From: Bacteroidales bacterium
GTDB taxonomy: Bacteria > Bacteroidota > Bacteroidia > Bacteroidales > UBA932
Direction of reading: 5' to 3'
Length of the DNA stretch: 54,481 nucleotides
Assembly (NCBI GenBank): GCA_017962025.1
Contig: JAGCWD010000072.1
Span: 1-54,481, forward strand
In this document: positions 20,727-35,558 of the stretch, one piece after another
Position numbering within the stretch: the first letter of the stretch is position 1
Layout: each line of letters begins with the position of its first letter
Notes under the pieces: model-generated
Told to the model about the DNA's origin: nothing
The model's database searches: none
Seen by the model: the letters and a program-made list of their open reading frames with translations, nothing else
Position numbers and translations under genes: made by a program

Positions 20727-21677
20727 CTAAAATGGTTTCTTGTTCTTCTTTGAATATGAATACAAGAGTTTGGACACCAAGGATGAAGAAAGATGGAGCT
20801 TCGAGGCGATCTCCTCGACAGTCAAACCATAACCATTTCCAAGGGTCACTGCCAGGTCACATTTCTTCCCGGCATCTAGGTCCCTTAAATCCCTTACCCC
20901 ATAATTGACATTCAATATATTCTCAATAAACGAATCCACATCGCTTCCAGAAGGAGACCAAGCTTCTCCAAGGTCGGAGGCAGTTCTCTTGTAGGTATCA
21001 AAATCACGGAAGATACGGTAGGTATAGTCCTTTGAATCCTTGTACAGGCTACTGGCTTTCGTCATCACCCCGTCATCAGTCATTAATAAATAGCTTTCGG
21101 GGAGGATGAACCCAAGCTTGCAAACCTTGTAGTCTTCCGGCAGCCTTACCTTCGAGCCAAGAAGTCGAATCATACCGCAAGTTCCGATCTCACCCGCTGC
21201 CTTGTACTCGAACACTTCTTTCACATCACTGAACATGAGATAATTGCTGCTCCAAAGATAGCCTCCGGGCAAGATATCCCTGCGTGCATCATATGAGTTT
21301 CTGGCAGAATAAGACACCGCATTGACCAGTTCGTTTAAAGACCCGAGACGAAGCAGTTTGAAAAACCATTTATCCGGAAGAGGAGGAAAGCCGTCTTTGA
21401 TCAGACGGGCATTTAGGCGAAAACGGATATAGTCGAAGAATCTGCAGCATTCCTGCCCTGTTGCAAGCAAGATGAAATGCCCGTGATTCCTCATCCAGTC
21501 AAATTGAATCACTCCTATCTTATTGATGAACTGGCCGATTGCCACGACATTCATCCCATTGACATATTCATCCCTGTCATTGAATAAGTTCCTGTCTCCG
21601 AGACTGTCCAGAGCAAGATGATAATACCATCTTCCCCAGGACTGATATTCCCTACGTTGTTTTTCAAGTTTAGTCAT
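20727..21677 (-). CDS. Y1/HUH transposase-like protein (REP-associated type)
   Basis: A 316-residue protein resembling the Y1_Tnp family of single-strand transposases (REP-associated tyrosine transposases). The HUH metal site is RNHGHFILL near residue 70; a candidate nucleophilic Tyr follows in the helix VSYSARNSYDARRD near residue 130. SSNYLMFSDVKE matches the downstream conserved block. The C-terminal 60 residues add a helix-turn-helix-like region (LTVEEIASKLHLSSSLVSKLLY). Single-copy relatives are often domesticated and act on REP hairpins. The ATG at 21677 starts the family sequence. It may be immobile; flanking terminal repeats are not clear. Confidence 0.75.
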   Translation of the reverse strand: MTKLEKQRREYQSWGRWYYHLALDSLGDRNLFNDRDEYVNGMNVVAIGQFINKIGVIQFDWMRNHGHFILLATGQECCRFFDYIRFRLNARLIKDGFPPLPDKWFFKLLRLGSLNELVNAVSYSARNSYDARRDILPGGYLWSSNYLMFSDVKEVFEYKAAGEIGTCGMIRLLGSKVRLPEDYKVCKLGFILPESYLLMTDDGVMTKASSLYKDSKDYTYRIFRDFDTYKRTASDLGEAWSPSGSDVDSFIENILNVNYGVRDLRDLDAGKKCDLAVTLGNGYGLTVEEIASKLHLSSSLVSKLLYSYSKKNKKPF

Positions 21678-22007
21678 ATAGGTTTCACAATTGTATTTCC
21701 TTAATAATATTACGAACCGGTTACAATAGCTCCAGCCATAAAGGTACAGCAATAATAGGCAAAAGAATCGTCATGAGTAACGGACGATAAAAAACAATGG
21801 CGACATATTTACGATTCTTATCTTATGACCAAATAATAACAAGAAAACATATGGCTGTCAAAAGGAAAGGAAACTGGGTTTTATCTACCTTCATGGGCAC
21901 CTCGAGTGGTCGTGAGGGAAGGAATAAGGCGAAATACTTGCCTGAGAAGAGCCTGAGAGGCATGGCAGAAAAAGAGGATGGATAATCAAGAAATTACTCG
22001 TTTTTTG
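21678..22007. other. Intergenic spacer between the transposase-like gene and lpxK
   Basis: No convincing gene is seen in this divergent spacer. A near-consensus -7 box for the transposase gene (TACCTTTA on minus, 21739-21746) is present. A 62-codon frame at 21797-21985 has no recognisable features. Confidence 0.4.
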
Positions 22008-22021: not shown

Positions 22022-23170
22022 ATGCTTGACAGGATCATCCTAGCCCCATATTATCTCACACTCAAACTGAGGCATTTTTGCTACGATCACGGAATCCGTA
22101 AGGTGAGCACCTGTGAGGTTCCGACCATTTGTGTCGGAAACATCACAGCCGGAGGTACCGGCAAGACTCCTCATACCGAGATGATCCTGCGCACCCTTCT
22201 AAAGAGCGATGACTGGGCCTACGAGGATCTTGCGGTACTGTCAAGGGGTCACAGGCGCGCCAGCGGCGGATTTCAAATCGTCACCAGGGACGGATCTGTC
22301 AAGGAATATGGTGATGAGCCTCTCCAAATAAAGAAGAAATTCCCGGGAGTGACAGTCGCTGTCGACCGTCACAGGGTAAAGGGATGCGACCTTCTGTGCC
22401 ACCCTGAAAAGCTGAAGACAGACAAGAGGGCACGTAAGTGTTCAGATGCTGAAATAGCCCCTGCGGACCTGATAGTCCTTGATGACGCATTCCAGTACAG
22501 GGCCCTGAGGGCCTATTTCAATATCATACTGGTTGACTACAACCGTCCGACCCACAAGGACAAACTACTTCCATTCGGCCGACTTCGCGACCTTCCCGAG
22601 AGACTCGGTGCGGCAGACATAATCATTGTCTCGAAGTGTCCTGCCTTCCTGGAAGACGAGAAAAAGACCGAATGGGCCAAGGTTTTCGGCCTCGAGGACT
22701 TCGATCCCCGCACCTGCAAGGGAACCGACCGTAAAGGAAATGAGAAAATCCTGTTGTTCTCAACGATTTGGTACAGTGCCTTGTCACCCATATTCGAGGA
22801 GGCTGATCCGAGATACGCATATTCACAGAAACTCATCCTTTTCTCAGGAATCGCGAAGGACACTCCCCTGCGTATGTACCTCTGCGATGAGCACAAGATC
22901 GTCAAGCGCTTCTGCTTTGAAGACCACCACAAGTACACCAAATACGATATCCGCAGGATAATGAATGCTGTACGAGAGAATCCAACAGCCGTGGTGGCCA
23001 CAACAGAAAAAGACTGCCAGAGAATCCTGGATCTTGGTAACATCCCCCAGGAACTGAAAGTTCGCCTCTTTCAGGTTCCGATCGAAGTCGGCTTCCTTTC
23101 CGAGCATGAGAAAGAGGTCTTCGAGACTTCTCTCCTCGATGCACTTCGATGTTTCAAGAAAGATTATTAA
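22022..23170 (+). CDS. lpxK: Tetraacyldisaccharide 4'-kinase
   Basis: A 382-residue inner-membrane-associated kinase that phosphorylates the 4' position of lipid A disaccharide. The P-loop is GNITAGGTGKTPHTEMILR (about residues 40-56). The conserved blocks LSRGHRR, YGDEPLQIKKKFP, VAVDRHRVKGC, LIVLDDAFQYRAL and FEDHHKYTKYDI follow. The length is somewhat above the E. coli enzyme (328 residues), as usual in Bacteroidales. It shares a bidirectional terminator with the convergent susD. Confidence 0.95.
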   Translation: MLDRIILAPYYLTLKLRHFCYDHGIRKVSTCEVPTICVGNITAGGTGKTPHTEMILRTLLKSDDWAYEDLAVLSRGHRRASGGFQIVTRDGSVKEYGDEPLQIKKKFPGVTVAVDRHRVKGCDLLCHPEKLKTDKRARKCSDAEIAPADLIVLDDAFQYRALRAYFNIILVDYNRPTHKDKLLPFGRLRDLPERLGAADIIIVSKCPAFLEDEKKTEWAKVFGLEDFDPRTCKGTDRKGNEKILLFSTIWYSALSPIFEEADPRYAYSQKLILFSGIAKDTPLRMYLCDEHKIVKRFCFEDHHKYTKYDIRRIMNAVRENPTAVVATTEKDCQRILDLGNIPQELKVRLFQVPIEVGFLSEHEKEVFETSLLDALRCFKKDY

Positions 23171-23244: not shown

Positions 23245-24786
23245 TTATTCGTTAGGAGTGACATCCCACCATACACGTGCCCAACGATCATCATTGCCGC
23301 CTAAGAACTTGTCAACAGCAATCTTATACTGCTCAGGGTTGCGTTCCTTGTCAGTATCGGAATAGATGAAACGTGAAGGCATAGTGGTATGCCCGGCATG
23401 CTGAAGTTTCTGGAAATCAGTAAGAGGTAACTCAGGAACATTTGTCCTTCTCCAGTCTGAATAAACTTCGACGCAGTCGGTCATGAAACCAGCCAACCAC
23501 CTCTGCATGCGGATCTCGTGCAATGCACCTGCATTGTCAGAAGGAAGAGGATGAGCAGCAATGTACTCGTCAACACCATCGGCTTCTTCAAATGCGAAGG
23601 AGGAACGGATCGCCTTCTCATAAAGATCAGAAGCATCGCCAGAGATAAGTCCGAGCTGTACTGCCTCAGCAATGTTGAAGAGGCTTCTTGCAGCAGTGAA
23701 CAAACCATAAGTGGCAGCCTGGACGCAGTACTTCTGGGTGACTGAACATGCGTGCTGAGCCTCATCAGTCACATCATCATTTCCGGAATGACCATGTGTT
23801 ACACCAAAATATGCATCGAAATCTGTAGGATCTCCAGGTCTCCCTCCAAGGTATGCTTGGCCATCTTCGATAGTGAACCTCTCGAACAAACGGGGATCCT
23901 TGTATTCCTTGAGAGCCTCGACAATAGTCTTATTGGGTCCCCAAGAACCATTCATAGCACTGTAAGTAAGGCAACCAACAGAATACAAAGGTGAGCTGGT
24001 AGCACGGGTGTCATACCTATAGAGGAGCTGATCGGCGTTATCGATGATTCCACCCTGGTTGTAAGCGGTGCTGAACCTAGCCTTTGCCGTAGCATTGTCC
24101 ACATCGGAAATCCTGAGGGCCATATCCATACGAATGGTGGCATTGAACTTCTTCCAGCGGGCAATGTTACCGCTGAAGAGAATATCAGCAGATGAAAGGT
24201 TTGTGCCTTCCTTGAACAAACCATAAGCTTCCTCAAGATCATTGAACAGGGCATTGTAAATGTCCTGCTGGGAATCAAAAGCAGGCTGCCAGATGTCATC
24301 ACTCTCACCCCTCCAGGCCTCTGACCAAGGAAGTGCACCGACCAGGTCGGTAAGATGCATCATGTAGAATGCCCTGAGAGTCAAGGCGGCAGCAATCTGA
24401 TTCTCATTACTGGAGCAGAAAGTCTTGACATTCACTTCGTCTTTCTGTTCCTCGTCTTTGTTCAACTCAATGATTGTATTGAGAACCTTCATGGAACCAT
24501 AGTAATAGCCCCTGGTGTCGAACTCGTAGGTCGTAGCCAAAGAACCGAACTGATTGTTCTTGGTCTCAGCCAGATAACCGACAAAAGCCGGCTGCCAGTA
24601 GTCATAACCCGAGGCAGAGATGAAATTCTGGGCGCTATAGCATGCCTGTGTAAAGAGCAGGTTGGTGTAAGGCGTACCCGGAGAGTTGGGGGATATGTTG
24701 ATGTCCCCGAAATCGCTGAAATTGCAGCTCGTAAGCGATGCGGCGAGAGCAAGGGCCGCGATTATGGATTTTTTCATTATTTTCAT
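23245..24786 (-). CDS. SusD/RagB-like nutrient-binding lipoprotein (pair A)
   Basis: A 513-residue surface lipoprotein, lipobox LTSC (Cys21), of the SusD-like family (SusD-like_2 type). It forms the lid over its SusC partner and binds a glycan or peptide ligand. Features: SPNSPGTPYTNLLFTQACYS near the N-terminus, alpha-helical TPR-like body, RWLAGFMTDCVEVYSDWRR and a C-terminal NPEQYKIAVD...WWDVTPNE. GGAGG sits eight bases before the chosen ATG (24786). It follows its susC by 20 bases. It is clearly paralogous to the SusD at 32642-34177 along its whole length. Confidence 0.92.
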   Translation of the reverse strand: MKIMKKSIIAALALAASLTSCNFSDFGDINISPNSPGTPYTNLLFTQACYSAQNFISASGYDYWQPAFVGYLAETKNNQFGSLATTYEFDTRGYYYGSMKVLNTIIELNKDEEQKDEVNVKTFCSSNENQIAAALTLRAFYMMHLTDLVGALPWSEAWRGESDDIWQPAFDSQQDIYNALFNDLEEAYGLFKEGTNLSSADILFSGNIARWKKFNATIRMDMALRISDVDNATAKARFSTAYNQGGIIDNADQLLYRYDTRATSSPLYSVGCLTYSAMNGSWGPNKTIVEALKEYKDPRLFERFTIEDGQAYLGGRPGDPTDFDAYFGVTHGHSGNDDVTDEAQHACSVTQKYCVQAATYGLFTAARSLFNIAEAVQLGLISGDASDLYEKAIRSSFAFEEADGVDEYIAAHPLPSDNAGALHEIRMQRWLAGFMTDCVEVYSDWRRTNVPELPLTDFQKLQHAGHTTMPSRFIYSDTDKERNPEQYKIAVDKFLGGNDDRWARVWWDVTPNE

Positions 24787-24806
24787 AATTGTTACCTCCA
24801 TATTAA

Positions 24807-27800
24807 TTAGAACATGCACCTGAAGGTGAGACCGAAGGTTCTCGAGGACGGGCTCTGGCCAGCCTCAAGATAGTTGCTACTAGATTCTGAAGGGTCGAAG
24901 TTCGGGCAGGCAGAATAAATCAGCCAAGGGTTGCTCGCTACGAAGGAGACGCTAGCAGAATTGAGACCAATGCCGAGTTTGTTGACGAAAGTCCTGGGCA
25001 GGGCATAGGTAAGGGAAAGCTCACGGAGTTTCAGGTAAGTTCTCTTGTAGAGAACACCATCATTGTCATAGTTGGACTTGTTGTAGTAGTAGTACCAGGA
25101 CTGGATGTGCGTGTCCACAGGATTGCCGCTTTCGTCAACACCGACAACATGGACACCGCCACCCTTGTCCGTAGGCTCACGGACGTTGATTCCATTGTCA
25201 TTGAGTTCCGCGGTGTAGGAGGAAAGACCGGAACCTTCCATCCAAAGGTTAGTCCATGAGAAAATGTCACCTCCGATGGTGTAGTCGAATTGAAGGCCAA
25301 GGGTCAAGGTCTTGTAACGGAAACTAGTGGAGAAACCACCGGTGAAGTCAGGCTGGAAGTTACCGACTGTCTTCTCCTCAACCTCTACGATAGGCATGTA
25401 ATCGCCGTAATACTGGTGATAAGCGGCGCCGGAAGTAGGCGCCAGGACAAGCTTGCCTTCGTCATTCCTCTTGAAGCGGGAACCGGTGTAAAGAACACCG
25501 ACAGGCTCACCCTCGATCGAATACATTCCGAACTCGTAGTTGAACTTGTTGTATTGGAGGAAGTATTGGGTCTGGTCAGGATGAAGCTTCACAAGGGTAT
25601 TGACGTTCTTAGCGATGTTGAAATCAGCATTCCATGTAAAATCCCTGGTGCGGACAAGGTCGCCACCGATCTCGAACTCGACACCGCGGTTACGGACAAG
25701 ACCAGCATTAACCTGCCTCATGTTCCAACCGGTCTGACCGGCGACAGGAAGGGAAATGATCTGATTCTTGGTGTCGCGGTTGTAGAAGTTGATGTCACCG
25801 TGAAGTCTGTTCTTAAACATCCTGAACTCGGTACCAACCTCGTAAGATGTGGAGATAGTAGGCTGGATGTCAGGATCGATCTGTGTTGTAGGTACACTCA
25901 TCGAAGAGATGGAGTTGTTGTACCTGGAACCGATACCATAGGTGTAAGTGGTAGCATAGGCACCCATCGTAGATCCGACCTGTGCTGCACTTGCACGCAG
26001 CTTCCAGAAGTCAAGCCAACTGGCCTTGACAAACCTGTTCAGCATGATGGAGAGTGATGCTCCTCCGTAGAGATAGTGATTATGAGAGACAGGAAGCCTG
26101 GAATCCCAGTCATTACGTGCAGAAAGATCGATGAAATAGGTGTCATCGAATCCCATAGTCAGGTTACCGAAGACCGAACGGGTTATGTATTGGGTAACGG
26201 AGTTGCTAGTAGAGTAGGTGTTAACCGAGTTCGAAAGATTGAAAAGCTTCGGGATAATGAGACCTGCATTTGTGTTGGAACTCAATGAGCCGTAGTCGTA
26301 AGTCTTCTGCTCAACGAAAGCGGCAGCATTGATACCGAGACGGTCATTGAAGAGACCCTTGTCCCAGGTAATACGACCTTGGTAGGTCATGTCAACTACA
26401 TGGTCCTGACTCTGGCTGTAACCGGATGTGTATGAATAGAAGTTAGGAGCCGCATGGTTCGTGGTCTCAGCATGGTAGTTGCGGATGTTGCCCATGATCC
26501 TGGCGCCAAGCTTGATATTCCAAGGAAGACTGAACTCAGCGTCACCGGTAATAACGTTCCAGATATATGTACTGTAAGCGTTATGCACTTCTGCATAAGC
26601 AAACGGGTTGTTGTGGTAGTTTGCGTCGAAATTGGTCTTGGATTTGATATTCCATGTCCTTGCACTTCCATCCGGACGCTCCCAATCCCTAAGTTCCTTG
26701 AAATCAACATTCATCTGACCCCACTGGATGAAGTCAGCGAGAGGGCTGGCCATTGAACTGTAACCATCACCGGCGGCGTTGTGGTTCTGCCTGTAGGTGA
26801 ACTTGTAGTCAAGGGAAAGGTTGAGCCAGGATGTAGGCATGATGTTGGTTTTCATCGTGAGGTAACGCCTGGTAGCCCTAGAGTTGTAAACAATACCAGT
26901 TCGGTCAGAGTTGGTGAATGAGACACGGGTATTGTGGTTGGGACCACCGTTGGAAACCGCTATATTGGTAGTGTTGTTCCAACCGGTGCGGAACATGTCA
27001 GCGGGATTAAACCTGGAGATCCAGGGATCGGCCTGCATGTACTTTGAGCTGGTGGGATCCCAATAGAGGGCTGAAGCAACCTTTACGTTAGGATCGAAGC
27101 GAGGACCCCAGTTCTCATCGTGCAGCCAGTCAAGGTTATAGGAGCCGTCAGGGTTCTGGAGATTGTTCCTTTCTCCGAGCAAGTACTGAGGTGACATTGT
27201 GTCTATGTCCTTGTAAGCTTCGGAGTTTCCAAGCCTCTGACCTACTTCACCATAAGAACCGCCACCGTATTCATGCTGGAGTTCGAGATGGTTGTAGTAG
27301 CGCTCCATAGTGGTGGTGTGGCTGAACTCGACATGGGTCTCACCATTCTTGGCACCACGGGTGGTGATGATAACGGCACCGTTACCTCCCTGGGAGCCGT
27401 AAAGTGCGGTTGCTGCAGGGCCCTTCAGGACGTTGAGGCTCTCAATGTCGTCCATGTTGACAGCATTCTTGTTGGTGATAGTACCGTCAACGACGTAGAT
27501 AGGCTCGCTACCACCCCAGGAATTATAACCCTGGGTACCGCGGAGAACTATAGAACCGGAGTCGAAGGTAGAACCGGAGCTGGAATAGAAACGTGCTCCA
27601 GCGACCTTTCCGGCCAGTGACTGTCCGAGATCGGTCTGACGGGCAATGGTAAGGTTCTCACCATCAATCTTGACGGTCGAGTAACCGATGGCCTTGTCCT
27701 TCCTCTTGAGGCCCTGGGCCGTAACGACGACCTGCTCGAGCATCTCAGTGTCGGGAGAAAGCACCACGTTGACCACCTGAGCTGCAGTCTGGGTCTGGTT

Positions 27801-28040
27801 GACCATACCGATGCAGGAGAAAACGAGGGTGCTGCCCGCAGGGACGTTGCGCAGGGTGTACTTTCCGGAAGCGTCAGTAATCGCTCCGTTGGTAGTCCCC
27901 TGGACAAAAACGGACGCTCCGATTACCGGAAGGCCGTCTTCTGCAGAGGTGACTGTACCAGTGACAGTCATGTTCTGCGCGAACACCGTGCCTATACTCA
28001 CGCAGAGGCACAGTAAAAAAACAACAAATTTTTTACTCAT
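24807..28040 (-). CDS. SusC/RagA TonB-dependent outer-membrane transporter (pair A)
   Basis: A 1077-residue transporter. Signal peptide ends at VFAQ (about 22); a carboxypeptidase-regulatory-like domain (24-105: VTGTVTSAEDGLPVIGASVFVQG) follows; then the SusC signature EQVVVTAQGLKRKDKAIGY and the plug (to about 230, VLKGPAATALYGSQGGNGAVIITT), then a 22-stranded barrel ending in ...FGLTFRCMF. It imports an unknown oligosaccharide or peptide with its SusD. Its first ~115 codons are almost identical at DNA level to the opposing susC, forming one arm of an inverted repeat around a recombinase gene. It has the longer upstream region and may be the expressed copy. Confidence 0.95.
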   Translation of the reverse strand: MSKKFVVFLLCLCVSIGTVFAQNMTVTGTVTSAEDGLPVIGASVFVQGTTNGAITDASGKYTLRNVPAGSTLVFSCIGMVNQTQTAAQVVNVVLSPDTEMLEQVVVTAQGLKRKDKAIGYSTVKIDGENLTIARQTDLGQSLAGKVAGARFYSSSGSTFDSGSIVLRGTQGYNSWGGSEPIYVVDGTITNKNAVNMDDIESLNVLKGPAATALYGSQGGNGAVIITTRGAKNGETHVEFSHTTTMERYYNHLELQHEYGGGSYGEVGQRLGNSEAYKDIDTMSPQYLLGERNNLQNPDGSYNLDWLHDENWGPRFDPNVKVASALYWDPTSSKYMQADPWISRFNPADMFRTGWNNTTNIAVSNGGPNHNTRVSFTNSDRTGIVYNSRATRRYLTMKTNIMPTSWLNLSLDYKFTYRQNHNAAGDGYSSMASPLADFIQWGQMNVDFKELRDWERPDGSARTWNIKSKTNFDANYHNNPFAYAEVHNAYSTYIWNVITGDAEFSLPWNIKLGARIMGNIRNYHAETTNHAAPNFYSYTSGYSQSQDHVVDMTYQGRITWDKGLFNDRLGINAAAFVEQKTYDYGSLSSNTNAGLIIPKLFNLSNSVNTYSTSNSVTQYITRSVFGNLTMGFDDTYFIDLSARNDWDSRLPVSHNHYLYGGASLSIMLNRFVKASWLDFWKLRASAAQVGSTMGAYATTYTYGIGSRYNNSISSMSVPTTQIDPDIQPTISTSYEVGTEFRMFKNRLHGDINFYNRDTKNQIISLPVAGQTGWNMRQVNAGLVRNRGVEFEIGGDLVRTRDFTWNADFNIAKNVNTLVKLHPDQTQYFLQYNKFNYEFGMYSIEGEPVGVLYTGSRFKRNDEGKLVLAPTSGAAYHQYYGDYMPIVEVEEKTVGNFQPDFTGGFSTSFRYKTLTLGLQFDYTIGGDIFSWTNLWMEGSGLSSYTAELNDNGINVREPTDKGGGVHVVGVDESGNPVDTHIQSWYYYYNKSNYDNDGVLYKRTYLKLRELSLTYALPRTFVNKLGIGLNSASVSFVASNPWLIYSACPNFDPSESSSNYLEAGQSPSSRTFGLTFRCMF

Positions 28041-28068
28041 AAGCTTAAATTTTTTATTAAACTTAATA
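27727..28068 (-). repeat. Left arm of the susC inverted repeat
   Basis: This arm (upstream leader and first 314 bases of susC A) matches 29366-29706 in inverted orientation. Perfect blocks are 53 bases (27727-27779), 39 (27840-27878), 38 (27801-27838) and about 23 around the start codon. Offsets from the ATG are equal in both genes (261 bases to the 53-base block), so recombination keeps the frame. Confidence 0.9.
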
Positions 28069-28402
28069 TTTAGTGATGAAATAGTGATTTTCTCAACTAT
28101 TTACGGCCGGCAAAACAGAAGTGTAAAAAGGGGATAATCCGCCCGTAAACGAACACAAACTGCAAAAACCGACCTGCAATTTTAGTAATAAAAAAGGAAT
28201 TATGCAACTTATTCAAAAAGGCCAAATCGTGAAAAACAATTGATTTTTATCGTTTTAACTCGTTAGGCTTGACCAAACTAGGGAGCCACGCCTTAAGAAT
28301 TTTTATTCAAAACCCGTTTTTGCTAACAAATCGGAACATGGTGTTTTTTATGGAATTATTAGCGTGGTGAATTGTAATGAATTAATAATCAAATCAATAA
28401 TA
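28069..28402. promoter_or_regulatory. Invertible-core upstream region with candidate susC promoter
   Basis: About 330 AT-rich bases between susC A and the recombinase hold no gene. On the minus strand GTTG (28205-28208) is 20 bases from TAAAATTG (28177-28184), close to the Bacteroidota consensus. It would give a susC A leader of about 130 bases. A plus-strand promoter for the recombinase is also expected here but is not clear. Confidence 0.4.
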
Positions 28403-29326
28403 ATGACTCATATACCTTTTGATGTTATTTGCCAGCTTTGGGAAGCTGACAAACAACGCTACGTAAAAGCCAGTTCGATGGCGGCTTATGTAATGACTAT
28501 CGAAAAGCACCTGAAACCCAACTTCGGCTACATCGACGAAATCACTTCAGACAGTATGCAGGAACTCGTCGACAGATGTGTCGAACAGGGTATGGCGCTT
28601 GCTTCCATTAAAAGCATCTTGGTTGTCCTCAAGATGATTGTACGCTACAGCGAGAGGCGAGGATGGATCGATCCTTTCCCGATGGATATGAGGTTCCCCA
28701 AGAACATTCGGAAAAAGACCGTACCTTCCGCCCTTCCTGTCAGGGAGGAAAAGATGATCATAGATTATCTGATCACCAATCCCACCAGCATGAACACCGG
28801 CCTCCTCATCTGTCTTTGCTGCGGATTAAGGATCGGCGAGGTTTGTGCCTTGAGATGGGTCGATGTGGATTTCTTCAACCAAGTGATCCACATCTCAAGG
28901 ACTATTTACCGGATTTATCATGCCGATGGACCGATCCGGGGATCTGAATTGGTGATAGGGTCTCCCAAGACAGCCACCTCTTTCCGTGATGTTCCCGTAA
29001 CCGGAATACTCTGCAAGATCCTTGTCAAGCTCCGGAAAGGGCGCAACAATGCTACATACATAGCTTCCGGGGAATCCACCCCTGTCGATCCCCAGACCTT
29101 CAGGAACAATTTCAAAAGGGTTACCGAGGTCCTGGGGCTTCCGCGCAGGAGAGTCCATATCCTAAGGCATACTTTTGCCACCAGATGTGTAGAGGCTGAT
29201 TGTGACTACAAGACCCTGAGCTCCTTGCTCGGCCACTCAAATGTAAGCACAACCCTGAATCTCTATGTCCATCCTGATATGGAAAGGAAACGACAGTGCG
29301 TTGAAAAGATGATGAAGATACTGTAA
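28403..29326 (+). CDS. Tyrosine recombinase between two susC genes
   Basis: A 307-residue site-specific recombinase. The N-terminal SAM-like DNA-binding domain covers residues 1-100. The catalytic domain has Arg in CCGLRIGEVCALRW, the Lys beta-hairpin region around GSPKTATSFRD, HILRHTFATR (His-x-x-Arg), LLGHSNVSTT (His) and the nucleophile Tyr in LNLYVHPD. All six catalytic positions appear present. ATG at 28403 was chosen; an in-frame GTG start at 28364 is possible. Lying inside inverted repeats made by the susC 5' ends, it most likely flips this segment. It reads towards susC B, which starts 66 bases after its stop. Confidence 0.93.
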   Translation: MTHIPFDVICQLWEADKQRYVKASSMAAYVMTIEKHLKPNFGYIDEITSDSMQELVDRCVEQGMALASIKSILVVLKMIVRYSERRGWIDPFPMDMRFPKNIRKKTVPSALPVREEKMIIDYLITNPTSMNTGLLICLCCGLRIGEVCALRWVDVDFFNQVIHISRTIYRIYHADGPIRGSELVIGSPKTATSFRDVPVTGILCKILVKLRKGRNNATYIASGESTPVDPQTFRNNFKRVTEVLGLPRRRVHILRHTFATRCVEADCDYKTLSSLLGHSNVSTTLNLYVHPDMERKRQCVEKMMKIL

Positions 29327-29365
29327 ACGCCCCCTTCTACTCTAGGCTTTCCTTTTTTAACTAAT

Positions 29366-29706
29366 TATTAAGTTTAATTAAGGTTTAAGCTTATGAGTAA
29401 AAAATTATTCTCTTTGCTGCTGTGCCTTTGCGTAAGCATGGGTACGGTGTTCGCGCAGAACATGACCGTCACTGGTACGGTCACATCTGCGGAGGACGGC
29501 CTTCCGGTGATCGGAGCGTCCGTCTTTGTCCAGGGAACTACCAACGGAGCGATCACTGACGCTTCCGGAAAGTACACCCTGCGCAACGTCCCTACGGGCA
29601 GCACCCTCGTTTTCTCCTGCATCGGTATGGTCGACCAGACCATGACTGCTGCCCAGGTGGTCAACGTGGTGCTTTCTCCCGACACTGAGATGCTCGAGCA
29701 GGTCGT
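29366..29706 (+). repeat. Right arm of the susC inverted repeat
   Basis: Inverted partner of 27727-28068. Perfect blocks are 29654-29706 (53 bases), 29555-29593 (39) and 29595-29632 (38), plus the segment around the start codon including an AAGCTT site just before ATG. The one-base length difference lies in the leader. Confidence 0.9.
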
Positions 29707-32620
29707 AGTTACGGCCCAGGGCATCAAGAGAAAGGACAAGGCCATCGGTTACTCAAACGTCAAGATCGACGCTGAGAACCTGACCATTGCACGTCAGACC
29801 GACCTCGGCCAGTCTCTCGCCGGTAAGGTCTCCGGAGCACGTTTCTACTCACGTGCAGGAACCAACCTCGACGCCGGTTCCATCGTTCTCCGTGGTACCT
29901 CCGTGTTCAACAACCTTTCCGGTTCGTCACCTATTTATGTAATTGACGGAACCATCGCAAGCCAGGGCGCCCTCAACATGGACGATGTCGAGAGCCTCAA
30001 CATCCTCAAGGGACCTGCTGCTACGGCACTGTATGGTTACCAGGGAGCAAACGGAGCCGTGATCATCACCACCCGCTCCGCCAAGAACGGCGAGACCCAT
30101 GTAGAGTTCAGCCACACCACAACGATGGAGAAGTACTACAACCACCTGAAGATCCAGGATAAGTTCGGTGGTGGATCATACGGTCGTTATGGCCAGTATT
30201 ACGGTCAGAATGAGAAGTATGCCAATGAGGATACCAACTCTCCCGAGTGGTTGCTCGGTAATTTCGAGAGCCAGAACCCGGACGGATCGTACAACTACGA
30301 CTGGGGTGATGACGAGAACTGGGGTCCCCGTTTCGACCCGAATGTGAAAGTCGCTGACGCCCTCTACTGGGATCCTACCAGCAGCAAGTACATGAAGGCA
30401 GATCCTTGGACATTCCAGTTCAATCCCGCCGACATGTTCCGTACCGGTTGGACCAACACGACCAACATCGCCGTCTCTACTTCAGGCAAGAACTACAACA
30501 CCCGTATTTCCTTCACCAACACCGATCGTACCACCATCAAGGACAACACCGATGCACAGAGGCGTTACCTCACGATGAAGACCATGATCGATCCCACTTC
30601 CTGGATGAAGATAACCCTTGACTACAAGATGACCTACAGGAAGAACCACAACGGATCATCCGACGGTTATGGTGAAATCACCAGCCCCCTCATGGACTTC
30701 ACACAGTGGGGTCACATGAACCTCAACATGAAGGACTACCGCGACTGGGAGCGTCCGGACGGAAGTGTCAGGACATGGAACATCACCTCGAACGAGAACT
30801 TCAATCCGACTTTCCACGACAACCCCTGGGCCACCATGTACCTTCACAACAGCTATGGTGCAACCCTCTACAATGTCGCAACCGGTGACGTGGAGTTCAG
30901 TCTCCCCTGGAACATCAAGGTTGGCGGCCGAGTGATGGCCAACATCAGCAACTATCACGGTGAAAGCAGGTACCATCAGGCTCCAAACGTCAGGAACTTC
31001 AGCTCCTACTACGGAGAGAGCCAGAACCATGCTATGACACTCACCTATCAGGGCCGCATCACCTGGGACAAGAGCCTCATCAACGACCGCCTCGGCATCA
31101 ACGCCGCCGCCTTCGTCGAGGAACTCGATTATGATTACGGTACCCTCGGTGCCAACACCACTGACGGCCTTACCATCCCCAGGTACTTTAACCTGGCTGC
31201 ATCCAACGGTATCAAGTCCGCTTCCAACAGCGAGACACACTACAAGACCCGTTCGGTCTTCGGTAACCTCACCATGGGATTCGATGACACCTATTTCATC
31301 GACCTTTCCGTACGTAATGACTGGGATTCCAGATTGCCTAGCGCCAACAACCATTATCTCTATGGTGGTGCATCAGTCTCCATCATGCTGAACAAGTTCT
31401 TCAAGGCCAACTGGCTCGACTTCTGGAAACTGCGCGCAAGCGCCGCCCAGGTAGGATCTACCCTCGGCGCCTATGCTACGACCTATGTCTATGGTTCCGG
31501 CACCAAGTACAACGGTACCATTGCTGCACAGTCCCAGTCCTCTACACAGCTCAACCCGGCAATCAAGCCTACTATCTCCACTTCCTACGAAGTTGGTACT
31601 GAGTTCAGGATGTTCAAGAACAGGCTACATGGTGACATCAACCTCTACAACCGTGACACCAAGAACCAGATCCTCAACCTCCCTGTCGCCGGTCAGACCG
31701 GTTACAACACCCGCCAGATCAACACTGGTCTCGTGAGGAACAGGGGTATCGAGTTCGAGATAGGTGGCGACATCATCCGCACCCGTGATTTCACCTGGAC
31801 AGGTGACTTCAACATCGCAAAGAATGTCAACACCCTCGTGAACCTCTATCCTGGTTATGAAGAGTACTTCCTCGCCTACAACAGGTTCTACTATGACTTC
31901 GGTATCTACGCCAACGAAGGCAGCCCTATCGGTGTAATGTACACCCTCGGCCGCTGGAAGCGTAACGATGAAGGAAAGATCGTCGTCAAGAAGAGCACCA
32001 GTGCATGGTGGGGCGGTGGCTACCAGCCAGTCTATGACCTCGGAGGAGATCCTCATTACATCGGTAACTTCCAGCCCGACTGGACCGGTGGTTTCTCCAC
32101 CAACTTCCGTTACAAGAACTGGAATCTCGGCATGAGCTTCGACTACACCATCGGTGGACAGATCTTCTCATATTCCAACCTGTGGATGACCGGTTCCGGT
32201 ATTGCGTCCTGGACTGCCGATGTCAATGACAAGGGTATCAACGTCCGTGAACCTGTCGCCAAGGGTGGTGGTGTCCATGTCAACGGTGTCGATGAGGATG
32301 GAAACCCTGTCGACTGCTACATGAACGCAGCCTATTACTTCCAGTATCAGGCAATGTATGACAACGACCACTGGATGTACGACCGTACTTACCTGAAGAT
32401 GCGTGAGGTCTCCCTGACCTACAACTTCCCCAGGAGGTTCGTTGACAACCTCGGAATCGGCCTCAACAGCGCGAGCCTCTCGTTCGTCGCTTCCAACCCC
32501 TGGCTGATCTACTCTGCAGTTCCTAACTTCGACCCTTCAGAGTCAAGTACTGACTGGCTCGAAGGTGGACAGAACCCTTCGTCAAGGACATTCGGTTTCA
32601 CTTTCAGATGCAGTTTCTAA
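29393..32620 (+). CDS. SusC/RagA TonB-dependent outer-membrane transporter (pair B)
   Basis: A 1075-residue paralogue of the SusC at 24807-28040, with the same plan: signal peptide (VFAQ), regulatory-like domain, EQVVVTAQGIKRKDKAIGY, plug (ILKGPAATALYGYQGANGAVIITT) and barrel ending FGFTFRCSF. The first ~115 residues are nearly identical to copy A; plug and barrel diverge, especially in predicted loops (e.g. residues 165-185 and 270-300), implying a different ligand. Only 66 bases separate it from the recombinase stop, with no clear promoter. In this orientation it may be silent or depend on read-through. Confidence 0.95.
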   Translation: MSKKLFSLLLCLCVSMGTVFAQNMTVTGTVTSAEDGLPVIGASVFVQGTTNGAITDASGKYTLRNVPTGSTLVFSCIGMVDQTMTAAQVVNVVLSPDTEMLEQVVVTAQGIKRKDKAIGYSNVKIDAENLTIARQTDLGQSLAGKVSGARFYSRAGTNLDAGSIVLRGTSVFNNLSGSSPIYVIDGTIASQGALNMDDVESLNILKGPAATALYGYQGANGAVIITTRSAKNGETHVEFSHTTTMEKYYNHLKIQDKFGGGSYGRYGQYYGQNEKYANEDTNSPEWLLGNFESQNPDGSYNYDWGDDENWGPRFDPNVKVADALYWDPTSSKYMKADPWTFQFNPADMFRTGWTNTTNIAVSTSGKNYNTRISFTNTDRTTIKDNTDAQRRYLTMKTMIDPTSWMKITLDYKMTYRKNHNGSSDGYGEITSPLMDFTQWGHMNLNMKDYRDWERPDGSVRTWNITSNENFNPTFHDNPWATMYLHNSYGATLYNVATGDVEFSLPWNIKVGGRVMANISNYHGESRYHQAPNVRNFSSYYGESQNHAMTLTYQGRITWDKSLINDRLGINAAAFVEELDYDYGTLGANTTDGLTIPRYFNLAASNGIKSASNSETHYKTRSVFGNLTMGFDDTYFIDLSVRNDWDSRLPSANNHYLYGGASVSIMLNKFFKANWLDFWKLRASAAQVGSTLGAYATTYVYGSGTKYNGTIAAQSQSSTQLNPAIKPTISTSYEVGTEFRMFKNRLHGDINLYNRDTKNQILNLPVAGQTGYNTRQINTGLVRNRGIEFEIGGDIIRTRDFTWTGDFNIAKNVNTLVNLYPGYEEYFLAYNRFYYDFGIYANEGSPIGVMYTLGRWKRNDEGKIVVKKSTSAWWGGGYQPVYDLGGDPHYIGNFQPDWTGGFSTNFRYKNWNLGMSFDYTIGGQIFSYSNLWMTGSGIASWTADVNDKGINVREPVAKGGGVHVNGVDEDGNPVDCYMNAAYYFQYQAMYDNDHWMYDRTYLKMREVSLTYNFPRRFVDNLGIGLNSASLSFVASNPWLIYSAVPNFDPSESSTDWLEGGQNPSSRTFGFTFRCSF

Positions 32621-32641
32621 TATTAAATGGAGATTACTACT

Positions 32642-34177
32642 ATGAGAATATTTAGAAAATCAATGCTTGCGGCACTTGCCGTAGCCGCAACCCTTACAAG
32701 CTGCAAGCCCGGTGACTTCGGAGACATCAACCTTTCCCCGAACAGCCCGTCCACTCCTTACACGGACATGCTCTTTACCTTTGCCTGCTTCTCCCAGAGA
32801 GGGTTCATCACCTCCACAAGCTATGACCTCTGGCAGGTCAGCTGGGCAGGTTACATGGCCGAGGCGGTGAACAACCAGTTCGGCGACCTCAAGACGACCT
32901 TCTACTTCGCTACGAGGGACTACTACTACACCCCGATGAAGAACCTCACCACAATCATCAATATGAACACTGATGAGGAAACTAAGGATGAGGTGAATGT
33001 CCGCCAGTTCGGAACAAACAACAACCAGATAGCCGCTGCTCTGACCCTCAGGGCATGGTACATGATGCACCTTACCGACATGCTCGGCCCTCTTCCTTGG
33101 TCCGAGGCTTGGAAGGCAGATTCAGACGACATCTGGTTCCCGAAGTTCGATTCCCAGCAGGAGATCTACACAGCCCTGTTCAACGATCTCGAGCAGGCCT
33201 ACGGTCTCTTCGACGAGAGCAGCTCCCTGACCAAGAACGATATCATGTACAACGGTAACATCGCCCGTTGGAAGAAGTTCAACGCTTCCCTCCGTATGGA
33301 CATGGCCCTCAGAATCTCCGACGTCGATCCTTCGACCGCGAAGACCCGCTTCGGTACAGCCTACGGCCAGGGTGGTATTACCGCCGCTGCTGATGGTTAT
33401 CACTACAAGCATGACAACACTGCGACCTACGCCTACCTGTACTACATCGGTAACCTCAACTATGGTTCAAGGGATCTCCAGTGGGGCCCCAACAAGTACA
33501 TAGTTGACGCCCTCAAGGAGTACAAGGATCCCCGTATGTTCGTACGCTTCACAATTGGCGACGATGCTTACCTCGGCAAGAGGCCTGGCGATCCGACTGA
33601 CTATGAGGCCTATTTCGGAATCGAGTACGGCCAGAGGACCAATGATATGGTCCACCAGTGGGCCGACAAGTCCTGCTCCATCAGCCAGAAGTACTGTGCA
33701 CAGACTGCTACCTACGGAATCTTCACCGCGGCAAGGAGCCTCTTCAACATGGCAGAGGCTGCACTGCTCGGAATCATCTCCGCAGATGCAAGCTCTCTGT
33801 ATGAGCAGGGAATCCGTGCTTCCTTCGAATTTGAGGAGGCTGAGGGAGTTGACGAATACATCGCCGCTCACCCGCTGCCCGCCGACAAGGAGCAGGCCCT
33901 CTATGAGGTCCGCATGCAGAGGTGGATTGCAGGCTTCCTGACAGACTCCATCGAGGCCTGGTCTGACTGGAGGAGGACCAATACTCCTGCCATGAAACTC
34001 ACTGAGTATCAGACAGAGAGCAATGGTGGACACACTGTCCTTCCTTACCGTCACACCTATGAGTCAACCGACATCGACCGTAACCCTGATGAGTACAAGA
34101 AGGCTATCGACGCCTACTGCGGTGGCAGGGACGAGCGTTGGGACAGAGTCTGGTGGGATGTCGCTCCTAACGAGTAA
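32642..34177 (+). CDS. SusD/RagB-like nutrient-binding lipoprotein (pair B)
   Basis: A 511-residue surface lipoprotein, lipobox LTSC (Cys21), partner of the SusC 21 bases upstream. It shares with SusD A the start SPNSPSTPYTDMLFTFACFS, the middle block RWKKFNASLRMDMALRISDVD and the end NPDEYKKAIDAYCGGRDERWDRVWWDVAPNE. The ATG at 32642 was chosen by analogy with pair A. A terminator follows. Divergence from SusD A is spread through the ligand-binding part. Confidence 0.92.
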   Translation: MRIFRKSMLAALAVAATLTSCKPGDFGDINLSPNSPSTPYTDMLFTFACFSQRGFITSTSYDLWQVSWAGYMAEAVNNQFGDLKTTFYFATRDYYYTPMKNLTTIINMNTDEETKDEVNVRQFGTNNNQIAAALTLRAWYMMHLTDMLGPLPWSEAWKADSDDIWFPKFDSQQEIYTALFNDLEQAYGLFDESSSLTKNDIMYNGNIARWKKFNASLRMDMALRISDVDPSTAKTRFGTAYGQGGITAAADGYHYKHDNTATYAYLYYIGNLNYGSRDLQWGPNKYIVDALKEYKDPRMFVRFTIGDDAYLGKRPGDPTDYEAYFGIEYGQRTNDMVHQWADKSCSISQKYCAQTATYGIFTAARSLFNMAEAALLGIISADASSLYEQGIRASFEFEEAEGVDEYIAAHPLPADKEQALYEVRMQRWIAGFLTDSIEAWSDWRRTNTPAMKLTEYQTESNGGHTVLPYRHTYESTDIDRNPDEYKKAIDAYCGGRDERWDRVWWDVAPNE

Positions 34178-34460: not shown

Positions 34461-35558
34461 TTATTCTTCCAAAATACGGTTTTGCTCGGCAACGGAAGCC
34501 TCATGGATGGCATTGAAAACATCCGTGATGAACTTTTCGGAAAGGCCGTAGGTCTTGCCCTTCGAGATCATGTCTGAAAGGACTTTATCCCAACGTTCAG
34601 CCTGGATAATGGCAATGTTGTGAGCTTTCTTGAACTGTCCCATCTTTCTGGACACCTCCATCCTGGAACCAAGGGAAATCAGAAGGTTCTCGTCGATGAC
34701 ATCGATCCTGGCACGAAGCTGCTCGATGTTCTCATTGTATTCCCTGTCGTTGGTACGTTTCTGCCTGACAATCAAGCTCTCCAACAAGGTCTTTAAGTCT
34801 GATGGAACCAGTTGCTGGGAAGCATCGCTCAAGGCACAGGATGGATCACAATGGGATTCTACCATCAGGCCGTCAAGGCCAAGGTCCATAGCCCTCTGGG
34901 ACAGTTCCTTAAGATATTGGCGTGATCCACCCATGTGGCTTGGATCTGCGAAGAAAGGAATCTGGGGATAGCGGGTACGGAGTTCCACCGCGATCTGCCA
35001 ACCGGGGAGGTTGCGGTAAGGAATCTTCTGGGTTGTGGAAAACCCTCTGTGGATGACACCTAGCTTCCTGACACCTGCCCTATTGAGCCTTTCGAGCGCA
35101 CCGACCCAGAGATCCAGGTCAGGATTGACAGGATTCTTGACAAGCACCGGTATGTCAGTGTCATGGAGCGCATCGGCAATCTCCTGGACCATGAAAGGAT
35201 TCGCGGTTGTACGGGCACCGATCCAGACCATGTCTATTCCATACTTCATGCACTCATAGACATGCTTCTCGTTGGCCACTTCAGTGCAAACCTTCATTCC
35301 GAACTCCCTTTGTACCTTCTGCAACCATTTGAGGCCGGGCACTCCGGCTCCTTCAAAAGAGCCCGGATGGGTACGGGGTTTCCATATTCCGGCACGGAAT
35401 ACATGGATCCCGAATTCATGCAACCCTTTCGCTGTCATCATCACCTGCAGCTCTGACTCGGCGCTGCACGGACCGGCGATGACGATAGGCGGTATGCTCT
35501 CGTCGAAAAATCCCCACTCGGAGACTGGTATGGTGTCAAGGGTTCTGTCCATTGTCAT
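34461..35558 (-). CDS. DAHP synthase fused to chorismate mutase
   Basis: A 365-residue bifunctional enzyme: type I-beta 3-deoxy-7-phosphoheptulonate synthase (residues 20-270; IVIAGPCSAES, RAGIWKPRTHPGSFEG, VIHRGFST, FADPSHMGG, MVESHCDP) followed by an AroQ chorismate mutase (275-365; LRARIDVIDENLLISLGSRMEVSRKMGQFK). It makes the first step of the shikimate pathway and converts chorismate to prephenate. The C-terminal mutase order is as known for Porphyromonas, and such fusions allow feedback control by prephenate. Its ATG overlaps the tyrA stop by four bases. Confidence 0.95.
   Translation of the reverse strand: MTMDRTLDTIPVSEWGFFDESIPPIVIAGPCSAESELQVMMTAKGLHEFGIHVFRAGIWKPRTHPGSFEGAGVPGLKWLQKVQREFGMKVCTEVANEKHVYECMKYGIDMVWIGARTTANPFMVQEIADALHDTDIPVLVKNPVNPDLDLWVGALERLNRAGVRKLGVIHRGFSTTQKIPYRNLPGWQIAVELRTRYPQIPFFADPSHMGGSRQYLKELSQRAMDLGLDGLMVESHCDPSCALSDASQQLVPSDLKTLLESLIVRQKRTNDREYNENIEQLRARIDVIDENLLISLGSRMEVSRKMGQFKKAHNIAIIQAERWDKVLSDMISKGKTYGLSEKFITDVFNAIHEASVAEQNRILEE

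Follow-up and report, generated by a model that had tools for sequence, protein, structure and literature searches.

The two susC-susD units that flank a tyrosine recombinase gene between lpxK and aroG probably form an alternator of two receptors, in which the recombinase would invert a segment of ~1.4 kb, holding a promoter and the recombinase gene itself, and so choose between susCD A and susCD B. The evidence for inversion comes from a comparison between species, each represented by one genome. The window analyzed here is a contig of 54,481 nucleotides from a Bacteroidales MAG that is 81% complete. The initial annotation of this contig proposed a phase-variable susC switch; comparison with relatives favors such a switch, in the form of a recombinase-linked inversion, and suggests that the switch point lies elsewhere than in the sequence blocks first proposed.

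The anatomy of the locus is as that annotation described it: susD A and susC A lie on the reverse strand and the recombinase, susC B, and susD B on the forward strand, with the two units pointing away from the recombinase between them (Table 1). Both receptors pass the curated cut-off of TIGR04056 (SusC/RagA receptor), the frame of susC B is intact, and susC B lies 66 nt past the recombinase stop. The recombinase is likewise intact, with all the residues of the R-K-H-R-H-Y catalytic motif of tyrosine recombinases; a longer frame opens at a GTG (28364), and the start common to relatives is the ATG given in the table. Between dus and lpxK, genes that nearly abut in a related locus (L072), the window has a 341-aa ORF (20727-21752, reverse strand); it matches nothing in Pfam or NCBIfam at E 0.001 and may resemble a REP-associated transposase.

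Table 1 Features of the receptor slot between lpxK and aroG, in window positions (P, promoter side; S, side of the recombinase stop).
Feature	Position	Strand	Basis
lpxK, left flank of the slot	22022..23170	+	TIGR00682 above cut-off; related loci with the same flank
susD A	23245..24819	-	PF12771, PF12741
susC A, promoter-side (P) receptor	24807..28040	-	TIGR04056, 524 bits (cut-off 368)
Exchange tract, A copy (+60 to +360), contains the perfect blocks	27681..27980	-	
P-side leader/start-codon element	about 28027..28068	-	box TATTAAGTTTAAT, then TTTAAGCTTATGAGTAAAAAATT
Promoter-like element directed at susC A	28162..28207	-	alignment; kept on the same side in relatives
Tyrosine recombinase, 307 aa	28403..29326	+	PF00589, E 6e-24; catalytic residues; tree
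S-side leader/start-codon element	about 29366..29406	+	
susC B, receptor adjoining the recombinase stop (S side)	29393..32620	+	TIGR04056, 537 bits (cut-off 368)
Exchange tract, B copy	29453..29752	+	
susD B	32627..34177	+	PF12771, PF12741
DAHP synthase/chorismate mutase ("aroG"), right flank of the slot	34461..35558	-	both domains below NCBIfam cut-offs; related loci with the same flank

We searched for the recombinase in two overlapping draws from the genus (151 and 400 genomes), in 299 genomes of the family, and in 298 genomes of relatives, all collections with one genome per species. It was found in 5 of the 299 family genomes and one of 25 genera (E <= 1e-90), and in 6 of the 298 relatives and one of 119 genera (1e-95); a further contig collection yielded two loci with the recombinase, and the viral contigs searched held no relative of it. 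We mapped recombinase, susC types, and flanks at 92 loci; the loci compared below are those among them that have a leader motif, described further on, or a recombinase match of 46% identity or more. For 71 recombinases, the number of aligned residues exceeded 200. A quick maximum-likelihood tree of these 71 places the window recombinase in a clade of 21 members (SH-aLRT 100): ten from the slot between lpxK and aroG (F1), nine from a second slot (F2) between X (L037 8180-9910) and Y (L040 7811-8911 and 4912-7827), and two, L110 and L064, without a label. Twenty of the 21 adjoin a susC, namely the 19 labelled members and L110, whose contig begins with 25 susC codons. The last, L064, is cut by a contig end; it starts within the recombinase, beside aroG, and L160, on another contig of that genome, has a recombinase start and a promoter-side susC. 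Three loci (L061, L122, and L159) were labelled F1 through a nearby susC, yet their recombinases lie outside the clade. Those of L061 and L159 (genomes G116 and G261) form a separate clade (40-41% identity) that has the same leader motif, with a promoter-like stretch seemingly on the 3' side of the recombinase, as read by eye; in G116, one contig starts exactly at the leader motif.

Alignment of the two susC 5' ends bears out the inverted arms of the initial annotation. The arms match at 88% across 516 nt (27534-28049 and 29384-29899), are extended by a 29-nt stretch at 83% (28053-28081 and 29353-29381), and contain perfect blocks of 53, 39, and 38 nt at equal offsets from both ATGs (+261, +162, and +202, respectively), as well as a fourth, of 23 nt, that includes the start codon (-9 to +13). 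Identity between A and B is 90-97% from +60 to +360, a stretch in which A and its orthologue at L034 reach 81-88%; past +480, A and B fall to 63-72%, with A and the orthologue at 76-88%. We counted informative sites as exchange-type (A and B agree, both unlike the orthologues of A) or orthology-type (A equals its orthologues and B differs). There are 14 exchange-type and 3 orthology-type sites in +60 to +360, compared to 55 and 202 in +360 to +2200 (Fisher p 5e-7). Since the order is reversed outside the tract, exchange between the arms postdates the split from L034; by this count, the likeness of the arms is greater than ancestry or constraint would explain. The perfect blocks resemble a tract that the arms have exchanged, and such exchange (+60 to +360) is, on the same comparison, all that the window itself records.

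The initial annotation put the crossover in these coding blocks (+162 to +314), where inversion would make the receptors trade signal peptide, regulatory domain, and upstream region. The window's longest perfect blocks and the A-B exchange tract do lie there, and L037 carries a 43-nt perfect inverted repeat within the same domain. A plateau with scattered differences, however, suits conversion better than a single site, and the related loci direct attention to the start codon. L034, the orthologous locus of RUG14710, which agrees with genome G639 at each of the 18338 bases compared, has the same flanks as the window and an A-type susC that is 84% identical to window susC A past residue 150. 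The second susC of L034 belongs to a different type, with 27% identity to the L034 A-type gene past the same residue. Despite this low identity, the pair shares an 89-nt perfect inverted repeat over the start codon (-33 to +55). Perfect repeats also cross the start codon in L109 (51 nt) and L072 (29 nt), and the longest shared block ends at about +55, +40, and +20 in L034, L109, and L072, respectively. Moreover, the window has the A-type leader (AAAAAA, then TTTGTT) on its P side, but L156, where the recombinase end was read by eye, has it on the S side; this places the boundary before the ATG. We therefore regard a crossover in the coding blocks as improbable. With the repeat of relatives located at the start codon and its leader, the main effect of inversion would be to relocate the promoter, and the receptors would keep their coding sequences whole rather than exchange signal peptides and regulatory domains. 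As a separate observation, the promoter-side susC A of RUG14710 is found in two overlapping frames (L034 6437-9632), owing either to an assembly error or to real inactivation.

The leaders of a locus resemble each other beyond what the leaders of different loci do. At the six loci with two arms, identity between P and S leaders (0 to 60) is 0.84 within loci and 0.72 between them (1 of 720 permutations), although both units are of one broad type at three of the six (the window, L108, and L109), so that paralogy adds to the effect. The letters from -9 to 0 are alike across all loci and hold no within-locus signal (permutation p 1.0). With at most two mismatches, the leader motif occurs in 29 of 400 genus genomes, and its reversed control in 2 of 400. 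Of the 43 motif places listed, 40 are on contigs of known length, and eight of these 40 lie less than 300 bp from a contig end, against 1.25 expected; some of the places counted have no recombinase in view. This excess fits repeats or mixed orientations.

We had considered whether the motif strictly marks the presence of the recombinase, a reading that we partly reject, as several places examined show no recombinase nearby. At susC genes of L154, L158, L162, L164, L165, and others, the motif, in part together with the box, is present where no recombinase was found nearby, and it may serve another function of the leader. A core site of 9-nt arms, TAAGTTTAA and TTAAGCTTA, around a 7-nt spacer was rejected because the spacer lengths are unequal between partners in the window, L072, L108, and L109. 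An alternative core, TAAATATTAA-GTTTAA-TTAAGGTTTA, was considered by eye; the crossover would be placed to within about 45 nt.

The promoter-like element that had been noticed on one side of the core is conserved in relatives, on the 5' side of the recombinase only, and precedes the susC found there whatever its type. The conserved core near TTTATTTG..GTCGGTTTTTGC starts 127-148 nt upstream of the ATG. It matches at 18-24 of 25 letters in the 14 P leaders scored and at 12-14 in six S leaders; in the window the match is 19 of 25. L108 was scored for its S leader, and its P leader is part of the alignment. Each segment has one such element, standing ahead of differing susC types among relatives. 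At F2 loci there is another upstream element common to the promoter side (by eye only). L107 (9892-18499) contains two tandem susCD units, each of which has its own promoter element and a leader motif in direct orientation; a reading of these units as excisable promoterless SusCD cassettes found no support, as the second unit has its own promoter copy.

Both orientations of the module occur among species. Because the loci share ancestry, the following counts of orientation and loss are not independent and correspond to fewer independent events. In F1, nine recombinases point toward aroG or away from lpxK (the window, L034, L036, L038, L064, L080, L105, L107, and L108) and three toward lpxK (L072, L106, and L109), with both flanks in view save at L064 (aroG only) and at L108, L072, and L106 (lpxK only). 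In F2, six point toward X (L037, L041, L104, L110, L111, and L117) and four toward Y or away from X (L039, L040, L112, and L113). L040 and L041 have a module identical in kind but reversed, with both flanks in view. At one-sided loci, the retained unit is on the 5' (promoter) side of the recombinase in 15 of 15 cases, six in F1 (L036, L038, L080, L105, L106, and L107) and nine in F2 (L037, L040, L041, L104, L110, L111, L112, L113, and L117); the susC runs off the contig in L110, L111, and L113, and L064 was set aside, its 5' side being out of view. Remnants persist on the S side as susC stubs in L037, L040, L110, L111, and L112 and as a susD tail in L080. In L036, L105, L106, and L064, we found neither such a remnant nor an S-side site ahead of the flank gene. 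F2, with its own recombinase subclade and another susC type (L037, L039-L041, L104, L110-L113, and L117), in five cases has a short piece of a second susC left beyond the recombinase, and L039 retains two long arms, 83% alike over 1.6 kb to the contig end.

The receptor types themselves also change sides. Type 995 is on the P side in L038, L080, L107, and L108 and on the S side in L034, L072, and L108; type A is on the P side in the window, L034, L106, and L109 and on the S side in L156; and types A, C3, and 995 are all found on both flanks in different species. Whole units therefore also move or get replaced, which, as far as the sequences tell, is more than inversion of the core alone does. 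A more far-reaching reading, possible though less likely than not, is that one resident recombinase, one promoter, and interchangeable SusCD units (A, A', C3, and 995) make up a platform for receptor exchange in a fixed slot, where sides and types would swap at the shared leader and loss of the silent unit or the recombinase would fix one receptor; the second slot, with its own subclade, would work alike.

The two paralogous units could also exchange sequence by ordinary homologous recombination or gene conversion, with the module reversed now and then over evolution and the recombinase a passenger or otherwise employed. The homology of the arms over hundreds of nucleotides, the exchange tract between them, the leader motif at recombinase-free loci, and the presence of receptor types on either flank all agree with such an account. 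It sits poorly with a recombinase clade of which 20 of 21 members adjoin a susC, with repeats confined to the leader at loci whose genes are dissimilar (L034 and L072), and with the constant position of the recombinase between the P element and the S unit, and we consider it quite unlikely that there is no site-specific switch.

In the alternator that we favor, the inverted leader/start-codon elements would bound a segment in which one promoter is directed at susC A and the recombinase at susC B. Inversion of this segment by the recombinase, with a crossover within or close to the leader element, would turn the promoter to one pair or the other (susC A-susD A or susC B-susD B) and leave both coding sequences unbroken; that the recombinase lies within the flipped segment, as had been proposed, is supported by the relatives. 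In the sequenced state, A is predicted to be on, and B to be off or weakly read from the recombinase transcript. In the longer term, the arms would exchange coding sequence as well, in +60 to +360 here, and species would drop the silent unit or the recombinase and be left with a fixed receptor.

Whether the copy in this organism still switches is a narrower matter. The window leaders (-60 to +60) are only 71-78% alike, below the coding tract, and differ between the conserved boxes (AAAAAA vs TAAGG); since they differ, this copy may be slow or locked. A former switch, its leaders drifted and susC A permanently on, would be in keeping with these differences and with the broken or lost recombinases common in relatives (broken in L072, truncated in L080, and L157). 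However, the recombinase frame and catalytic residues are intact, as is the frame of susC B, and partner leaders differ in L072, L108, and L109 as well. We hold a locked state here to be possible but rather doubtful; it overlaps with the alternator, which concerns the general working of the locus. L157 itself, upstream of 10012, has an apparently internally deleted recombinase by an intact susC and leader, and is a possible locked relative (by eye).

Unlike Hin of Salmonella, a serine recombinase, the enzyme here is a tyrosine recombinase, with a receptor unit on each side. The Hin gene is inside its invertible segment (PMC5903667), as proposed here, and one promoter gives one of two states. 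Inversions of susC genes in Bacteroides, to which the initial annotation had referred, are known from the B. fragilis SusC/SusD shufflons (PMC5729914, PMC4747536), and by analogy our locus is of the same kind, in a compact variant. The tyrosine-type invertase Tsr0667 is reported to carry out inversions of the shufflon type at three SusC/SusD clusters as well as at nine other regions (PMC4747536), and susC homologues to have inverted repeats over their start codons (PMC5729914). Likewise, the window has two susC/susD pairs beside a tyrosine recombinase, and repeats overlap the susC start codon (23 nt in the window, 89 nt in L034). Shufflon region EE, reported in three strains (PMC3090145), has several gene pairs downstream of an invertible promoter; here, a two-unit segment encloses one recombinase and the promoter-like element. 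Compared by description with Tsr0667, a master invertase of many regions, the leader motif here is exact at only two places in an 81% complete genome, both of them the arms, and a third has 3 mismatches. Other accounts report invertible regions near or within SusC/SusD genes (PMC10939037, PMC11892184, PMC12632263), with SusCD orthologues among the inverting regions in a review (PMC12632263); such promoter invertons of gut Bacteroidales were found there from reads or strains, whereas our case is built on comparison between species. Among the open-licence papers listed in our searches, none was seen to describe the lpxK-aroG locus.

SusC receptors decide the nutrient uptake of a Bacteroidota cell and are exposed to phages and immunity. 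The locus would represent a compact, self-contained form of a known type of switch, in a large genus known mostly from MAGs. Its orthologous loci preserve both orientations as well as the loss of silent units, and may thus be a readable record of phase-variable pairs becoming fixed genes.
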